From positions 1,178,001 to 1,242,000 of the forward strand of contig NZ_JANUGV010000001.1 of NCBI RefSeq assembly GCF_024753215.1: a stretch of DNA of 64,000 nucleotides. The letters run 5' to 3'. The DNA is from Massilia solisilvae (lineage in GTDB: Bacteria > Pseudomonadota > Gammaproteobacteria > Burkholderiales > Burkholderiaceae_D). Positions 54,347 to 59,418 of the stretch are shown one piece after another. The position numbers and the translations under genes were made by a program. Position 1 is the first letter of the stretch, and the number at the start of each line of letters is the position of its first letter. The notes under the pieces are model-generated. The model was not told the DNA's origin and did no database searches. It was given only the letters and a program-made list of their open reading frames with translations.

Positions 54347-55753
54347 TCAGCCCTGTCTCGCCAGTTCCGCCAATCGCCTGCAGTCCGCAACCAGCCGGCG
54401 TTCGTCCACATTGGTCACGCCCAGCAGTAAACCGCTTGGTTGCGGGGCGTGCGCATACCAAGGAGACAGCGGCGCCGGCGCGAGCCCGAACGACAGCGCG
54501 CGCAGCGCAAGGTCCACGTCCGACACGGGCGTGCGCAGCCGTGTCAGGACCGCCATGCCGGCCGTCGCCTGCACATCGAGTACATCCGCGGCCACTTCGT
54601 GCAAACAGCGCACCAGCGCTTGCCGCCGCCCGGCATACAGCCGCTTCATGCGGCGCAAATGGCGAAGGTAATGCCCATCGTGCAGGAAACTCGCCACGGC
54701 GCACTGGGTGGTCGCGGCCGGCGCCGGTGCCAGGCAGGCCGCGAGGTCGCCGAACCCGGCCACCAGTTCTGGCGGGACAACCAGGAAGCCCAAGCGCAAG
54801 GTCGGGCTGATGGTCTTGCTGAAGGTGCCACAGTGAAGCACCCGCCCGCCGTCAAGCGACGCGAGGGCCGGGGCGGCCCGTCCTTCCAACTGCAACTCAC
54901 TCAAATAATCGTCTTCGAGAATCCAACTGTCGTTGCGATGCGCCCATTCAATCAATTCCAGCCGACGGGGCAGTGACATCGTTACGCCAAGCGGCGCCTG
55001 CTGGCCCGGGGTGACGACGGCCAGCGCCGCATCGGCCGCGATCGCGATGCCGGCTTCGACATCCAGTCCTTGATCGTCCACCGGGACCGCGCTTGTCGTC
55101 ATGCCTGCCAGTTTGAGCGCGGTGCGCGTCAGCGGGAAACCGGGATCCTCGACCCAGGCCTTGTTGCCTTCCAGTCCGAGGCCGCGGATCGCCAGCCCGA
55201 GCGCTCCCGAGAAGCCGGCTGTGATCAGCACCTGCGACGGGCTGCATCGAATGCCGCGGGCGATGGCCAGATAGGCTGCGATTTCGCGTCGCAACGCCGG
55301 CTCGCCACGCGGATCAGGGTAGCCGACCGGCGCCACTGCGGTGCGGCGCGCCTCGCGTGTAAGGATGCGCGACCACAATTTGTACGGGAATTCATCCTGG
55401 GCCGGCACGCCCATCTGGAACGACAGCGGCCGGGTACCGAAGTCGTGGAAGAGATCGAGCATCGTCGATGGCCGCTGCGTCCATCCCGACGTACAGGACT
55501 GTGGCGGGCGCTCGGTGACGCGCGTTCCCGCTGCGCCCAGGCCTACGGCAAGTTGCTCGTCGATAAGACGTTCGTACGCAATGCGCACCGTACCACGCGA
55601 GACGCCCAGTTGCGCGGCCAGGTCGCGCCAGGAAGGCAGCTTTGCATTGGCCGACAACTTTCCCGACTGAATGGCATCGCGTATGCCCGCGTAGATCTGT
55701 GTCGCCAGTGGTGTCTTCTTGGAGCGATCGAGCCCGATGGAAAGCGTGGTCAT
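54347..55753 (-). CDS. MocR-family transcription regulator 1 (GntR HTH + aminotransferase fold)
   Basis: A 468-residue regulator. The GntR-type winged helix is at about 10-80 (LPSWRDLAAQLGVSRGTVRIAYERL), and an aminotransferase-I-like PLP domain covers about 110-468. Lys313 in CGTFSKTISPTLRLGF is the expected PLP lysine; PVGYPDPRG and EDDYLSEL also match the fold. MocR proteins use PLP or an aldimine as effector. It diverges from CMD gene 1, and ATGGTAC lies 6 bases before its start, so self-control is likely. It is a close paralogue of the MocR at 62.4 kb. Confidence 0.9.
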   Translation of the reverse strand: MTTLSIGLDRSKKTPLATQIYAGIRDAIQSGKLSANAKLPSWRDLAAQLGVSRGTVRIAYERLIDEQLAVGLGAAGTRVTERPPQSCTSGWTQRPSTMLDLFHDFGTRPLSFQMGVPAQDEFPYKLWSRILTREARRTAVAPVGYPDPRGEPALRREIAAYLAIARGIRCSPSQVLITAGFSGALGLAIRGLGLEGNKAWVEDPGFPLTRTALKLAGMTTSAVPVDDQGLDVEAGIAIAADAALAVVTPGQQAPLGVTMSLPRRLELIEWAHRNDSWILEDDYLSELQLEGRAAPALASLDGGRVLHCGTFSKTISPTLRLGFLVVPPELVAGFGDLAACLAPAPAATTQCAVASFLHDGHYLRHLRRMKRLYAGRRQALVRCLHEVAADVLDVQATAGMAVLTRLRTPVSDVDLALRALSFGLAPAPLSPWYAHAPQPSGLLLGVTNVDERRLVADCRRLAELARQG

Positions 55754-55758
55754 CGTCC

Positions 55759-55765
55759 ATGGTAC
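55759..55765. promoter_or_regulatory. ATGGTAC site at mocR-1 / CMD-1 divergent promoter
   Basis: The heptamer ATGGTAC is 6 bases upstream of mocR-1. A related TTGGCAC lies 24 bases further (55783-55789). The same heptamer is next to mocR-2, which is why I list it. Confidence 0.45.
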
Positions 55766-55906
55766 AACGAAACACGCAAATCTTGGCACTGTTCTTTGGC
55801 CACCCGGAGGCGCAAGCTTTCGTCTGCGGCATGAGCCGCGTGAATCAAAACCTGAGCCGGCACGATCGTCCTGCAGCGAACGCCGCTCATCGACTGGAGA
55901 TATCAA

Positions 55907-56374
55907 ATGACGCAGCGTATGGATTACAACGCGGCCACACCGGCCGGCATGAAGGCATTGGGCGGAGTGTATGGCCATATCTTGCAGTGTGGACTGCCGA
56001 AGGTGCTGATCGACCTCGTCTATCTCCGCGTTTCGCAGATAAATGGCTGCGCCTACTGCATCGACATGCATTCGCGTGATCTGCTCAAGGAAGGCGTGTC
56101 ACTCGAAAAGCTGATCCTCGTCCCGGCATGGCGCGAGGGCGGGACCTTGTTTGACGCAACCGAACGCGCGGCACTTGCCTGGGCAGAGACGGTGACGCTG
56201 GTCGCCGAGACGGGCATTCCGGACGCAGACTATCAGGCCGTCGCCGCCGTGTTCAGCCCACAACAGTTAGCTGATCTCACGATTGCAATCGGCCTGATGA
56301 ACGCGTACAACCGGATGGCGATCAGCTTCCGGGCGGTTCCGGCAGCGGTGGCCAGGGCACTTGAGCCGGCTTGA
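55907..56374 (+). CDS. Carboxymuconolactone-decarboxylase (AhpD-like) protein 1
   Basis: A 155-residue AhpD-fold protein. The redox motif is CAYC (Cys48, Cys51) with His55 in NGCAYCIDMHS, which fits alkylhydroperoxidase-type chemistry rather than true carboxymuconolactone decarboxylase. GGAGATATCAA precedes the ATG. It diverges from mocR-1, and its end almost touches the HD gene. Confidence 0.88.
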   Translation: MTQRMDYNAATPAGMKALGGVYGHILQCGLPKVLIDLVYLRVSQINGCAYCIDMHSRDLLKEGVSLEKLILVPAWREGGTLFDATERAALAWAETVTLVAETGIPDADYQAVAAVFSPQQLADLTIAIGLMNAYNRMAISFRAVPAAVARALEPA

Positions 56375-56378
56375 TGCG

Positions 56379-57020
56379 ATGAGCAATCCTGACATTTTTG
56401 GTGTGAAAATACCGGACAGTGCCATCGCCCGCGACATCACCCAGCTCGTTCGCGACACGGAAAGCGACATGCTCTTCCAGCATTCACGGCGCGTCTTTTA
56501 TTGGGCCGCCATGACCGGGCAGCGCATGGGGCTCAAGTTCGACCCTGAGCTGCTGTACGCCGCTGCCATGTTCCACGATATCGGCATCACGCCGCATTAC
56601 CACGAGAGCCAGCTTCGCTTCGAGGTGGACGGGGCGAATGCGGCGCGTGAATTCCTGCGCGGGCGTGGGATCGCGGAAAGCGATGTGGAGAAGGTATGGC
56701 TGGCGATTGCCCTTCATACGACGCCCGGCATTCCTGAACACATGCACCCCGAAATCCGCCTGGTGCAGGCGGGGGCGGGAATGGACATGGCGGGACGCGG
56801 TTACGAGGATTTTACGGAAGAGGAGCGGGCGGCGGTCACTGCCGCCTGTCCTCGCAGCCACAATTTCGCCAACGAAGTGATCGACACTTTTTATGAAGGG
56901 CTGAAGCACCGGCCAGCGAGTACGTTCGGCACCTTCAATGACGATTTTCTCGCGGCGAAAGATCCTGGCTTCGAACGGGGCAATCTCTGCACGATTATTT
57001 TGAGATCGCCCTGGCGCTGA
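56379..57020 (+). CDS. HD-domain hydrolase
   Basis: A 213-residue protein. HD-domain metal ligands are HSRRVFYWAAM, FHDIG, ALHTT and a late Asp in GAGMDMAGRGYEDF. The pattern resembles the HD proteins related to cyanamide hydratases; the substrate is unknown. The ATG at 56379 follows the CMD-1 stop by 4 bases; an in-frame TTG at 56361 inside CMD-1 is an alternative. The two form an operon. Its end overlaps the ECF41 gene end by 26 bases (convergent). Confidence 0.78.
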   Translation: MSNPDIFGVKIPDSAIARDITQLVRDTESDMLFQHSRRVFYWAAMTGQRMGLKFDPELLYAAAMFHDIGITPHYHESQLRFEVDGANAAREFLRGRGIAESDVEKVWLAIALHTTPGIPEHMHPEIRLVQAGAGMDMAGRGYEDFTEEERAAVTAACPRSHNFANEVIDTFYEGLKHRPASTFGTFNDDFLAAKDPGFERGNLCTIILRSPWR

Positions 57021-57888
57021 TCTTGGCATTCAGGACTCCCAGCTTGTCTGGATTGCGCACGACATAAATCGCCGCGATGCGCCCATCGCGCAGGTCGAAC
57101 GAAGTGACGGAATCCGGCATACCGTCGCGCCAGGTCAGCAGCCCGGGTTCGCCGTTGACCATGATGATTTCGTGACGGCCCCGATCGGTCCACTTGCGCT
57201 CGATGCCGGCCACCAGGCGTGCCACGCGCCCGGCGCCCGCCACGATGCGTACCGTGGTTCTGGCTTTGCCGCCGCCGTCCCCGGTGTAGGTGGCATCGTC
57301 CGTGAGCAACGCCATTACCTGCTGCGGATCGTACGAGCGCGCCGCCTCGATGAATCGTCCCAGCAGTGCCAGGTGCGCTTCGCGCTGGACCGTAAAGCGT
57401 GGCCGCTCCGCGCGCACCCGCTCGCGCGCACGCTGCACGATCTTGCGGCACGCTGCCTCGGTCTTGCCGACCATCGCCGCCACCTCGGGGTAGTCCACAT
57501 CGAAAACCTGATGCAGCAGGAACACCGCGCGCTCTTCCGGGCCGAGGCGCTCGAGCATGAGCAGGAAGGCGGTCGAGATGTCGCTCGCCAGTTCCAGCGC
57601 CTCGGCCGGCGAACCGGCCTGCGCGTCGAGCAGCGGCTCGGGCAGCCAGGGCCCTACATAACGCTCGCGTTCGCCCATCATGCCGCGCAGGCGGTCGATC
57701 GACAGCCGCGTTACCACCGTGACCAGCCAGGCTTCCGGGGTGTGCGCTTCTACCGATCCGCGCATGTGCCAGCGCAGCCATGCTTCCTGGACGATGTCCT
57801 CGGCGTCGGCGCGCAGGCCGAGCATGCGGTAGGCGATCCCGAACAGGCGCGGGCGCAGGCGGTGAAAGGTGTCGGTTGCGGTATCCAT
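56995..57888 (-). CDS. ECF41-family sigma factor (SigJ-like) with SnoaL-like regulatory domain
   Basis: A 297-residue ECF sigma factor. Region 2 is within 1-75 (RMLGLRADAEDIVQEAWLRW), region 4 about 105-160. A C-terminal SnoaL-like domain (about 170-297) replaces a separate anti-sigma factor. The ECF41 hallmarks are all present: WLPEP at 81-85, DGGGK at 204-208 and NPDKL at 279-283. In ECF41 the extension both holds the factor inactive and is needed for activity. An ECF41-type promoter is directly upstream, and the divergent gene is a CMD protein, the known partner type. Confidence 0.94.
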   Translation of the reverse strand: MDTATDTFHRLRPRLFGIAYRMLGLRADAEDIVQEAWLRWHMRGSVEAHTPEAWLVTVVTRLSIDRLRGMMGERERYVGPWLPEPLLDAQAGSPAEALELASDISTAFLLMLERLGPEERAVFLLHQVFDVDYPEVAAMVGKTEAACRKIVQRARERVRAERPRFTVQREAHLALLGRFIEAARSYDPQQVMALLTDDATYTGDGGGKARTTVRIVAGAGRVARLVAGIERKWTDRGRHEIIMVNGEPGLLTWRDGMPDSVTSFDLRDGRIAAIYVVRNPDKLGVLNAKISARAISK

Positions 57889-57897
57889 GTTCCTCTA

Positions 57898-57924
57898 GAC
57901 GGATAAAACGCTGCGGGTGTGACA
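57898..57924 (-). promoter_or_regulatory. ECF41-type promoter of the sigma gene
   Basis: On the minus strand TGTCACA and CGTC are separated by exactly 16 bases, the ECF41 consensus as I know it. The -10 is only 9 bases before the start codon, so the leader is very short. Confidence 0.8.
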
Positions 57925-57956
57925 GGTCCGGGGAAAAAAATAGATCGGGACAATCC

Positions 57957-57983
57957 TGTCACAGAACCCACGGCCATGTCGAC
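57957..57983 (+). promoter_or_regulatory. ECF41-type promoter of CMD gene 2
   Basis: TGTCACA and CGAC are separated by 16 bases, one mismatch from the CGTC -10. The CMD-2 start is 45 bases downstream. Confidence 0.75.
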
Positions 57984-58027
57984 TAAGCACTGTAAGCCCA
58001 CCCAACTCATCGATTAAGGAGTACATC

Positions 58028-58465
58028 ATGCAACGTCTCGATTTTTCCAAAGCCTCGCCGTCCGCCTACAAAGCCCTGCTCGCCGTGGAGAACACCGTGC
58101 GCGAGAGCGGCCTGGAAGCCAGTCTGCTCGAGCTGGTCAAGCTGCGCGCATCGCAGATCAACGGCTGCGGCTACTGCGTGGACATGCACGCCGCCGACGC
58201 GCGCAAGGCCGGGGAGAGCGAGCGGCGCTTGTATGCGGTCGCAGTCTGGCGCGAGACGCCGTTCTTCACGGCGCGCGAACGCGCCGCACTGGCCTGGGCC
58301 GAGGCGCTGACCCGGCTGTCCCAACAGCCCGAGCTGGAGCGCGAATATGGCGCGCTCAAAGGGCAGTTCAGCGACAAGGAAATGGTCGACCTGACCCTGG
58401 CTGTGATCGCGATTAACAGCTGGAACCGCATGGCGATCGGTTTCGGGGTGCAGCCCGCGGCCTGA
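58028..58465 (+). CDS. Carboxymuconolactone-decarboxylase (AhpD-like) protein 2
   Basis: A 145-residue AhpD-fold protein with CGYC (Cys47, Cys50) and His54 in NGCGYCVDMHA. It is the divergent neighbour of the ECF41 sigma gene and has an ECF41-like promoter, so it is the likely target. It resembles CMD-1 in motif and length. AAGGAG lies 6 bases before the ATG. It converges with the EamA gene. Confidence 0.9.
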   Translation: MQRLDFSKASPSAYKALLAVENTVRESGLEASLLELVKLRASQINGCGYCVDMHAADARKAGESERRLYAVAVWRETPFFTARERAALAWAEALTRLSQQPELEREYGALKGQFSDKEMVDLTLAVIAINSWNRMAIGFGVQPAA

Positions 58466-58479
58466 TCCTGTCCGCGGGT

Positions 58480-59418
58480 TCACCGCTCTGCTACCGGCCC
58501 GGGCCGCTGCGGCGCCGCGCGATGTTGTGAATCCCTGGCACTACCAAGGACACCTGTCGTCAATGCCGTCCCCAGGACGATCAAACAGCTGCCCGCCGCC
58601 AACCGCCAACTCACGCCTTCGCCGAGAAACAGCACCGGCCACAACACACCAAACGCAGGGACAAGGAATGGCACGGCCATGGTGCGCGAGGCGCCGACGT
58701 TGGCAATCAGCCGGAAAAACAGGACGTAGGCGAACGCCGTGCAGCCCACGGTCAATGCTGCCAAGGCGGCCCACGCATGCGGCGAAGGCGCTACTGCAGG
58801 GCGCAGCAGCAGGGCCGGTATGGCAAGCACCAACGCGGCGACCAGTTGGCTGCCGGTGGCAACGGCGAGTGGCGGCACATCCGCCACGCGCTGCTTGCTG
58901 TAGTGCGCCGCGAATGCATACAGGAGCGTGGCTGCCACGCACGCGACGACGGCCCATCCGGTCGCAACGCTGCCTGGGCCAGTCTTGAAGCCGGCGTTAT
59001 CCCACACCAGCCACGTGACGCCCGCAAAGCCAAGCGCCAGGCCAAGTGCCCGTTCCTTGCCAATGGGCTGGCCCAGCCACAGCAATCCGATGACGGCTGC
59101 GTACAAGGGCGTGGCCGCGTTGAAGATCGCCGACAGGCTCGCGTTGATGCTCAGCGCCGCGAACGAGAACAAGACAAATGGCAGCGCCGAATTGGTCAGG
59201 CCCACGATCACGATCGGCCTCCAGTGACCTGCCATGGCGCGAACGCTCCCGTCTCGCCGCGCAGCCAGCAAGGGAAGCAGCAGGATTGCCGCGCCGGCGG
59301 CCCGGGCGCCGGCCATGGTGACGGCGCCAAATTCACCTGCGCCAACGCGCATGAAGAGGTAAGAGGCGCCCCATAGCGCAGCGAGCACCAGTAAGCGGGC
59401 GATGTCCGGTGTTTTCAA
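58480..59418 (-). CDS. EamA/DMT-family transporter
   Basis: A 312-residue permease with ten predicted membrane helices in two EamA repeats (ALWGASYLFMRVGAGEFGAV opening the first; VACVAATLLYAFAAHYSKQR near the second). The substrate is unknown; thiol metabolites are exported by some DMT members, which would fit its place behind dsbD, but that is a guess. It is the last gene of the tlpA-like/dsbD/eamA run. Confidence 0.85.
   Translation of the reverse strand: MKTPDIARLLVLAALWGASYLFMRVGAGEFGAVTMAGARAAGAAILLLPLLAARRDGSVRAMAGHWRPIVIVGLTNSALPFVLFSFAALSINASLSAIFNAATPLYAAVIGLLWLGQPIGKERALGLALGFAGVTWLVWDNAGFKTGPGSVATGWAVVACVAATLLYAFAAHYSKQRVADVPPLAVATGSQLVAALVLAIPALLLRPAVAPSPHAWAALAALTVGCTAFAYVLFFRLIANVGASRTMAVPFLVPAFGVLWPVLFLGEGVSWRLAAGSCLIVLGTALTTGVLGSARDSQHRAAPQRPGPVAER

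Follow-up and report, generated by a model that had tools for sequence, protein, structure and literature searches.

A divergent gene pair in Massilia solisilvae probably forms an ECF41 sigma factor circuit in which the sigma gene is transcribed as a leaderless mRNA and the neighboring gene, CMD-2, as a leadered mRNA, with probable control in trans of an unlinked gene, CMD-3. The window, i.e., the whole stretch of DNA analyzed here, comprises 64,000 nucleotides, and the following features are relevant to this reading:

55907–56374: CMD-1 gene, carboxymuconolactone decarboxylase (CMD) family
56995–57888, minus strand: ECF41 (SigJ-type) sigma gene, an open reading frame of 297 aa with an ATG start
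57886–57888, minus strand: start codon of the sigma gene and transcription start predicted from the sequence
57898–57924, minus strand: predicted ECF41 promoter of the sigma gene, TGTCACA-N16-CGTC, an exact and conserved box
57918–57963: inverted repeat TGTGACAGG / CCTGTCACA, corresponding to two back-to-back -35 elements with 32 bp between them
57957–57983, plus strand: predicted ECF41 promoter of CMD-2, TGTCACA-N16-CGAC, an exact and conserved box
57992–58027, plus strand: predicted 36-nt CMD-2 leader with G as its first base, the start being placed by analogy with S. meliloti
58028–58465, plus strand: CMD-2 gene, an open reading frame of 145 aa encoding an AhpD-domain protein of the CMD family

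The sigma factor and its neighbors

The preliminary description of the locus was confirmed as an observation and is supported in part as an interpretation. The sigma and CMD-2 open reading frames are divergent across a 139-bp gap, where it had put them, and the gap holds the two ECF41 boxes that it reported, facing apart, both exact and each with an N16 spacer. The sigma protein matches PF04542 (sigma2) and PF08281 (sigma4), scores 338.3 bits against the SigJ model NF007214 (cut-off 271; residues 2–287) and has M. tuberculosis SigJ (PDB 5xe7; residues 6–283 of 297) as its best solved-structure match. Both the SigJ model and the SigJ structure cover the SnoaL-like C-terminal extension, on which the SnoaL_2 model alone scores 20.4, below its gathering score of 27. 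These matches support the proposed assignment to ECF41 (SigJ-type), and genome-wide no other gene scores above the SigJ cut-off. The three motifs that had been presented as ECF41 hallmarks all occur in the protein, beginning at residues 81 (WLPEP, in the linker), 204 (DGGGK) and 279 (NPDKL), but only WLPEP is named as such in the main text of Wecke 2012 (PMC3426412). Across the 175 ECF41 loci surveyed below, WLPEP was found in 144, DGGGK in 122 and NPDKL in 118.

A family search of the four genes adjoining the sigma gene returned CMD, CMD, HD and EamA, i.e., a COE gene is adjacent and none of the four encodes an anti-sigma factor. The HD-domain gene (56361–57020) is convergent with the sigma gene, the 3' ends overlapping by 26 bp; it is 88% identical to the M. 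agilis copy and bears a weak likeness to cyanamide hydratase, scoring under the cut-off of that model.

CMD-2 matches the CMD family and carries E-X11-C-X2-C-X3-H from residue 35, which we take to be the AhpD peroxidase site; CMD-1 and CMD-3 lack the Glu of this motif. Because CMD-2 passes the core-domain model TIGR00778 and fails the full AhpD model TIGR00777 (26.3 bits vs. a cut-off of 191.95), it is best regarded as an AhpD-domain protein and not as AhpD. Solved proteins resembling CMD-2 include PA0269 and Atu0492. At one related locus (L009, genome G031) CMD-2 aligned in two frames and may be frame-broken or affected by a sequencing error.

Promoter boxes and their conservation

On the minus strand, the sigma-facing box consists of TGTCACA (57924–57918), N16 and CGTC (57901–57898), followed by TAGAGGAAC (9 nt) and the ATG. 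The CMD-facing box on the plus strand consists of TGTCACA (57957–57963), N16 and CGAC (57980–57983), followed by 44 nt and the ATG; these 44 nt include the Shine-Dalgarno-like TAAGGAG at 58015–58021, and the predicted transcription start is the ninth nucleotide after CGAC, a G at 57992. The exact ECF41 consensus TGTCACA-N16-CGTC is therefore present before the sigma gene and a CGAC variant of it before CMD-2, a departure that counts against our reading.

The number of boxes by itself carries little information. In the 5.2-Mb genome, TGTCACA-N15..17-CGWC occurs at three sites, all N16, compared with seven for the reversed control pattern, so that only the placement of the sites is beyond chance: one precedes the sigma gene, one CMD-2 and one CMD-3 on contig C28. 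At roughly seven sites per 5.2 Mb we estimate about 2e-4 sites per 139-bp gap, where two were found, in the correct orientations. When one mismatch was allowed, the window contained four matches against 1.9 expected, a number reached by 13 of 100 shuffles; the exact ones among the four are the sigma-facing and CMD-2-facing boxes. The relaxed motif TGTCACR-N16-CGWC gave eight matches in the whole genome vs. ten for its reversed control, hence no regulon members beyond the three sites can be claimed. As a means of defining the regulon, the genome search thus yielded three sites that each precede a sigma or CMD gene, but at a count no higher than chance.

Conservation of the boxes is more informative. 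Both are kept beside the close sigma orthologue at six loci (L007, L008, L009, L011, L013 and L023). In all five close orthologues with a divergent CMD-2, the window included, both boxes are present and the CMD-2 side reads CGAC; the four loci other than the window support the autoregulation and the CMD target proposed earlier, as far as sequence can. The M. agilis locus L008 is without CMD-2, yet a CGTC box directed toward other DNA is retained. The next gene in the direction of this M. agilis box (L043:4671-5324) appears by eye to be PhnB/VOC-like and is possibly a replaced target.

Position of the sigma start codon

In the window, the A of the sigma ATG is the tenth nucleotide after CGTC, the ninth (57889) being a C, and an in-frame TAG lies directly 3' of CGTC, which leaves no earlier start codon. 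Among 18 close orthologues (72–100% identity, window included), the ATG follows CGTC at 9 nt in two and at 8 nt in 15, so the -10 element lies 8–9 nt upstream of the ATG in 17 of 18. In the exception, L019 (G004), the leaderless start position reads ACG, and the sole ATG is 2 nt after CGTC. The same geometry is found in 11 of the 12 close orthologues that have no CMD nearby (~1.5 kb on each side), the twelfth being L019. The preliminary description had called the sigma mRNA almost leaderless from the 9-nt spacing; the spacing was borne out, and because the geometry is conserved and recurrent the case is stronger than was claimed.

To place this geometry in a wider context, we gathered ECF41 genes by searching 62 genomes of the genus, 369 of the class, 398 of the phylum, 200 of a second order and 250 of the order to which Massilia belongs, plus six named records. 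After exclusion of one partial match, one with a short upstream region and 18 duplicates, 175 distinct loci were counted; the matches G043:C70, G1094, G947:C44 and G857 stand outside this survey. A sense box, counted when located at most 220 nt from the conserved phenylalanine near the N-terminus, is present at 100 loci, and 75 have no box of their own within that distance. We termed a gene leaderless-type if it has an in-frame start at a distance of precisely 8 or 9 nt after CGTC and no in-frame start at 20 nt or beyond. By this rule 49 of the 100 boxed sigma genes are leaderless-type (8 nt in 24, 9 nt in 25), with ATG as start codon in 47 and GTG in two. The other 51 comprise 46 leadered genes, four ambiguous ones (L004, L006, L019 and L113) and one without a start after the box. 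Distances in the 38 leadered loci with one start beyond 10 nt are 19, 24, 25, 26 and so on up to 120 nt, and no boxed sigma locus has a sole start at 3–7 or 10–14 nt after CGTC. As a rough chance level, ATG or GTG in any frame occurs at 8–9 nt in five of 47 other loci. Two observations count against a leaderless start in individual members: an extra in-frame ATG is present at 2–3 nt in 16 of the 49, 12 of which are close orthologues, and at 14 nt in two (L154 and L159). In five of the 49, among them the window, a stop at or within the promoter leaves no earlier start. In the Undibacterium loci L004 and L006, the in-frame ATG at 8 nt is accompanied by others at 29 and 32 nt; both genes are likely leadered, given that the sister loci L003 and L005 offer starts at 32 and 30 nt only.

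The CMD genes beside these sigma genes provide a control. None of 54 boxed CMD genes (26 neighboring leaderless-type and 28 neighboring leadered sigma genes) satisfies the leaderless-type rule, compared with 49 of 95 sigma genes (Fisher p = 7e-13). Two of them, at L028 and L179, have a start at 8 nt plus another at 53, and the distance at L009, where the alignment is broken, was read by eye as about 42 nt. A box is lacking in another 12 CMD genes that neighbor leaderless-type sigma genes, which counts against our reading, and no CMD gene was found in the fetched stretch of 13 leaderless-type and 18 leadered loci.

When the leaderless label was traced over a tree of 124 proteins, eight changes were required, compared with a mean of 38.9 in 500 shuffles; at least four are forced by well-supported branches, and leaderless and leadered rows alone need five. 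The tree, which was restricted to proteins of at least 200 residues and, among loci that lack a sense promoter, to those of 45% identity or more, was built by a quick method without a mixture model and gave a long-branch warning. Its Massilia clade holds 18 rows, 17 of them leaderless. Other leaderless groups are a 20-row f15 clade and L182 of f267, and a mixed 18-row clade (support 94, not starred) has 11 leaderless members from f2, f15 and f182. On these sequences, the trait is inherited within clades and not limited to one of them. Kinship among the 49 genes lowers their effective number, which weighs against our reading.

From promoter spacing to a predicted leaderless message

The step from spacing to transcript is taken from S. 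meliloti, where the ECF41 promoter motif was reported to lie "9 nt upstream of the TSS" (PMC3616915). The promoter printed in Table 1 of PMC6180224, whose legend states that the TSS is set in bold, ends on the ninth base after CGTC; we read this last letter as the TSS, in agreement with PMC3616915. By the 9-nt rule, the transcripts of 24 leaderless-type genes would begin with the start codon itself, and those of the other 25 one base upstream of it. A pyrimidine directly precedes the start codon in 48 of the 49 and in 24 of the 25 genes of the 9-nt class. RNA polymerase prefers to start on a purine, and a pyrimidine at this position would be consistent with initiation moving to the purine with which the start codon begins. 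This feature hardly discriminates, however, since 38 of 46 leadered genes have one too. The ninth base after CGTC is a purine in 37 of the 46 leadered genes, fitting a start at that position.

Shine-Dalgarno pairing separates the two classes more clearly. Mean pairing energy is -2.45 kcal/mol for the 49 leaderless-type genes, near the shuffled level of -2.06, and -5.48 kcal/mol for the 38 leadered genes whose distances are given above (p = 4e-9). The contrast is the same whether leadered starts are chosen by energy or limited to one-start loci. Energies of -4.4 or lower occur in four of the 49, compared with 63% of the 38. Leaderless-type starts thus have a weak Shine-Dalgarno on average, although the window itself has AGAGGA before the ATG, which could serve a longer mRNA as a weak Shine-Dalgarno and counts against a leaderless message at this particular gene.

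Possible targets away from the sigma gene

The locus had been described as self-contained, which is only partly right. The pair in the gap fits that description, but the third exact box lies on another contig than the sigma gene (C28), 67 nt before the ATG of the unlinked CMD-3. CMD-3 orthologues (at least 72% identity) have a box 53–68 nt before the start in all 21 loci; an ECF41 sigma gene is present in the fetched stretch of eight of these and absent from 13. In the Massilia solisilvae genome, CMD-3 (L042:1463-2047) is without the neighboring ECF41 sigma gene of its G043 orthologue. Homology between the two genomes stops at the old sigma promoter, of which the -35 is changed, and the CMD-3 box is intact; a tblastn search next to CMD-3 found no trace of the clade-2 sigma gene (best E 4.2). 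The absence of this neighbor makes the sigma factor of the window the likely controller of CMD-3, as judged from a single case.

For each of the 12 genomes without a CMD gene near the close sigma orthologue, we examined the one CMD gene listed among the matches on the same contig, 110–191 kb away. All 12 carry a box 58–65 nt before the alignment anchor, one of them reading CGTCACA, and four of these boxes are also among the relaxed-motif matches. With only 40–46% identity to CMD-2, these genes are other paralogues. Sigma matches (E up to 1e-60) and CMD matches (E up to 1e-15) fall in the same 37 of 62 genus genomes, an agreement that was compared by eye and is inflated by shared ancestry. ECF41 sigma genes without a neighboring target can hence coexist with box-bearing CMD genes elsewhere in the genome.

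CMD-1 was considered as a further target and rejected: no box precedes the copy in the window, nor any of eight distinct CMD-1 loci (L043 and L066–L073, where L043 and L072 are one locus). A gene resembling MocR-type regulators, as judged by eye, is divergent to CMD-1 in the window (54347–56374), and a candidate regulator site, an element around TTGGC.CTGTTTT.TGG, is common to the upstream regions of the CMD-1 orthologues L066–L071.

Proposed mechanism and alternative explanations

In the mechanism we propose, relief of the sigma C-terminal extension would allow the holoenzyme to fire both back-to-back promoters. The CMD-2 promoter would give rise to an mRNA with a 36-nt leader and Shine-Dalgarno-driven synthesis of the AhpD-domain enzyme. 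Transcripts from the sigma promoter would start at the A of the ATG or one base before it and would thus have to be translated without a leader, adding to the supply of sigma factor. CMD-3 is probably driven by this sigma factor as well.

It is unlikely that the sigma gene is instead expressed from some other promoter with a normal leader, the box being accessory or unused and its spacing accidental. The AGAGGA upstream of the ATG would suit such a transcript, any positive loop needs a basal source of sigma to start, and the 75 ECF41 genes without their own box must be borne in mind. However, a strict sigma-70 consensus scan of 57850–58500 gave no match, which is weak evidence, and the same spacing is seen again in distantly related families whose gene layouts differ, and is the sole spacing in none of the 54 CMD genes; the scarcity of strong Shine-Dalgarno pairing among the leaderless-type genes points the same way. 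A closer variant, in which the promoter is used but a short leader results from a slightly earlier transcription start or from initiation at an ATG 2–4 nt after CGTC, strikes us as quite improbable. In-frame ATG or GTG codons do occur at 2–4 nt (22 occurrences over 100 loci), and L019 offers only its ATG at 2 nt. Against this stand the in-frame TAG of the window, which has no earlier start, the ECF41 start that was mapped in S. meliloti at 9 nt from the motif (PMC3616915), and the empty 3–7 and 10–14 nt classes among sole starts.

The arms TGTGACAGG and CCTGTCACA form a perfect 9-bp inverted repeat and could thereby be taken for the operator of a separate dimeric regulator, with the sigma factor acting elsewhere. 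We regard this as highly improbable, because the gap between the -35 elements at the six two-box loci is 30–32 bp in three and 11–12 bp in three while the N16 spacers are fixed, and because single boxes precede CMD-3 and sigma genes without a divergent partner. A rigid palindromic or dimer operator was rejected on the same variation in arm spacing, from 11 to 32 bp. At 11–12 bp, two polymerases probably exclude each other.

Under the leaderless, autoregulated reading, leaderless translation might sustain production of the sigma factor under conditions that hamper ordinary initiation. More speculatively, and in our view doubtfully, leaderless translation may be built into several ECF41 branches, combining sigma feedback through a message best read by intact 70S ribosomes with a target read from an ordinary site, so that loop strength would depend on the ribosome. 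If the sigma message were leaderless in several branches, the loop would gain a translational input, and ribosome state (starvation, cold, translation stress) would act on it as a second input, in addition to the sensor domain fused to the sigma factor. The parts of the literature searched yielded no test of such an input to the ECF41 loop. With a leaderless sigma message and a leadered target in one locus, it would become testable in soil bacteria that are harmless, and a simple annotation rule can be offered for such genes: an ATG 8–9 nt after CGTC.

Comparison with known systems

The divergent two-promoter ECF41 circuit is of a kind already known, ordinary in its genes and layout. According to the main text of Wecke 2012 (PMC3426412), the layout <ECF< >COE> occurs in 55 of 373 ECF41 loci, 36 of which have the motif in front of the sigma gene and 41 in front of the COE gene. 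The window resembles those loci in sigma family, WLPEP linker, CMD neighbor, divergent order and TGTCACA-n16-CGTC boxes. It differs in that the COE gene or operon is given there as the only detectable target, whereas here the unlinked CMD-3 is boxed too. The inducing condition of ECF41 sigma factors is stated there as not known, and the word "leaderless" is absent from that main text.

S. meliloti RpoE9 / SMb20029, as presented in PMC3616915 and PMC6180224, is likewise an ECF41 system with the same promoter and a CMD target, and overexpression of the sigma factor raises its own expression. In contrast to the window, CMD lies upstream of sigma in one operon with a single promoter. The link between ECF41 and leaderless messages was not found in the portions of literature searched, the S. 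meliloti map included, a scope that does not allow its absence from print to be claimed.

The closest parallel for an ECF sigma gene with a leaderless mRNA, which in the window is predicted from sequence, is sigE of M. tuberculosis, although this belongs to another ECF group and has several promoters. Its leaderless transcript alone is reported to drive a more than 10-fold rise upon starvation (PMC3898074). One review passage has the leaderless P2 transcribed by SigE-RNA polymerase (PMC10027907), and PMC4921905 places a SigE/SigH-type sequence at the upstream, non-leaderless promoter; as these sources differ on which promoter is SigE-type, the parallel is not settled. Relative to these systems, what appears to be new here is a conserved geometry, arising in several clades, from which a sigma message that is both leaderless and autoregulated is predicted opposite a leadered target, together with evidence suggestive of unlinked targets.
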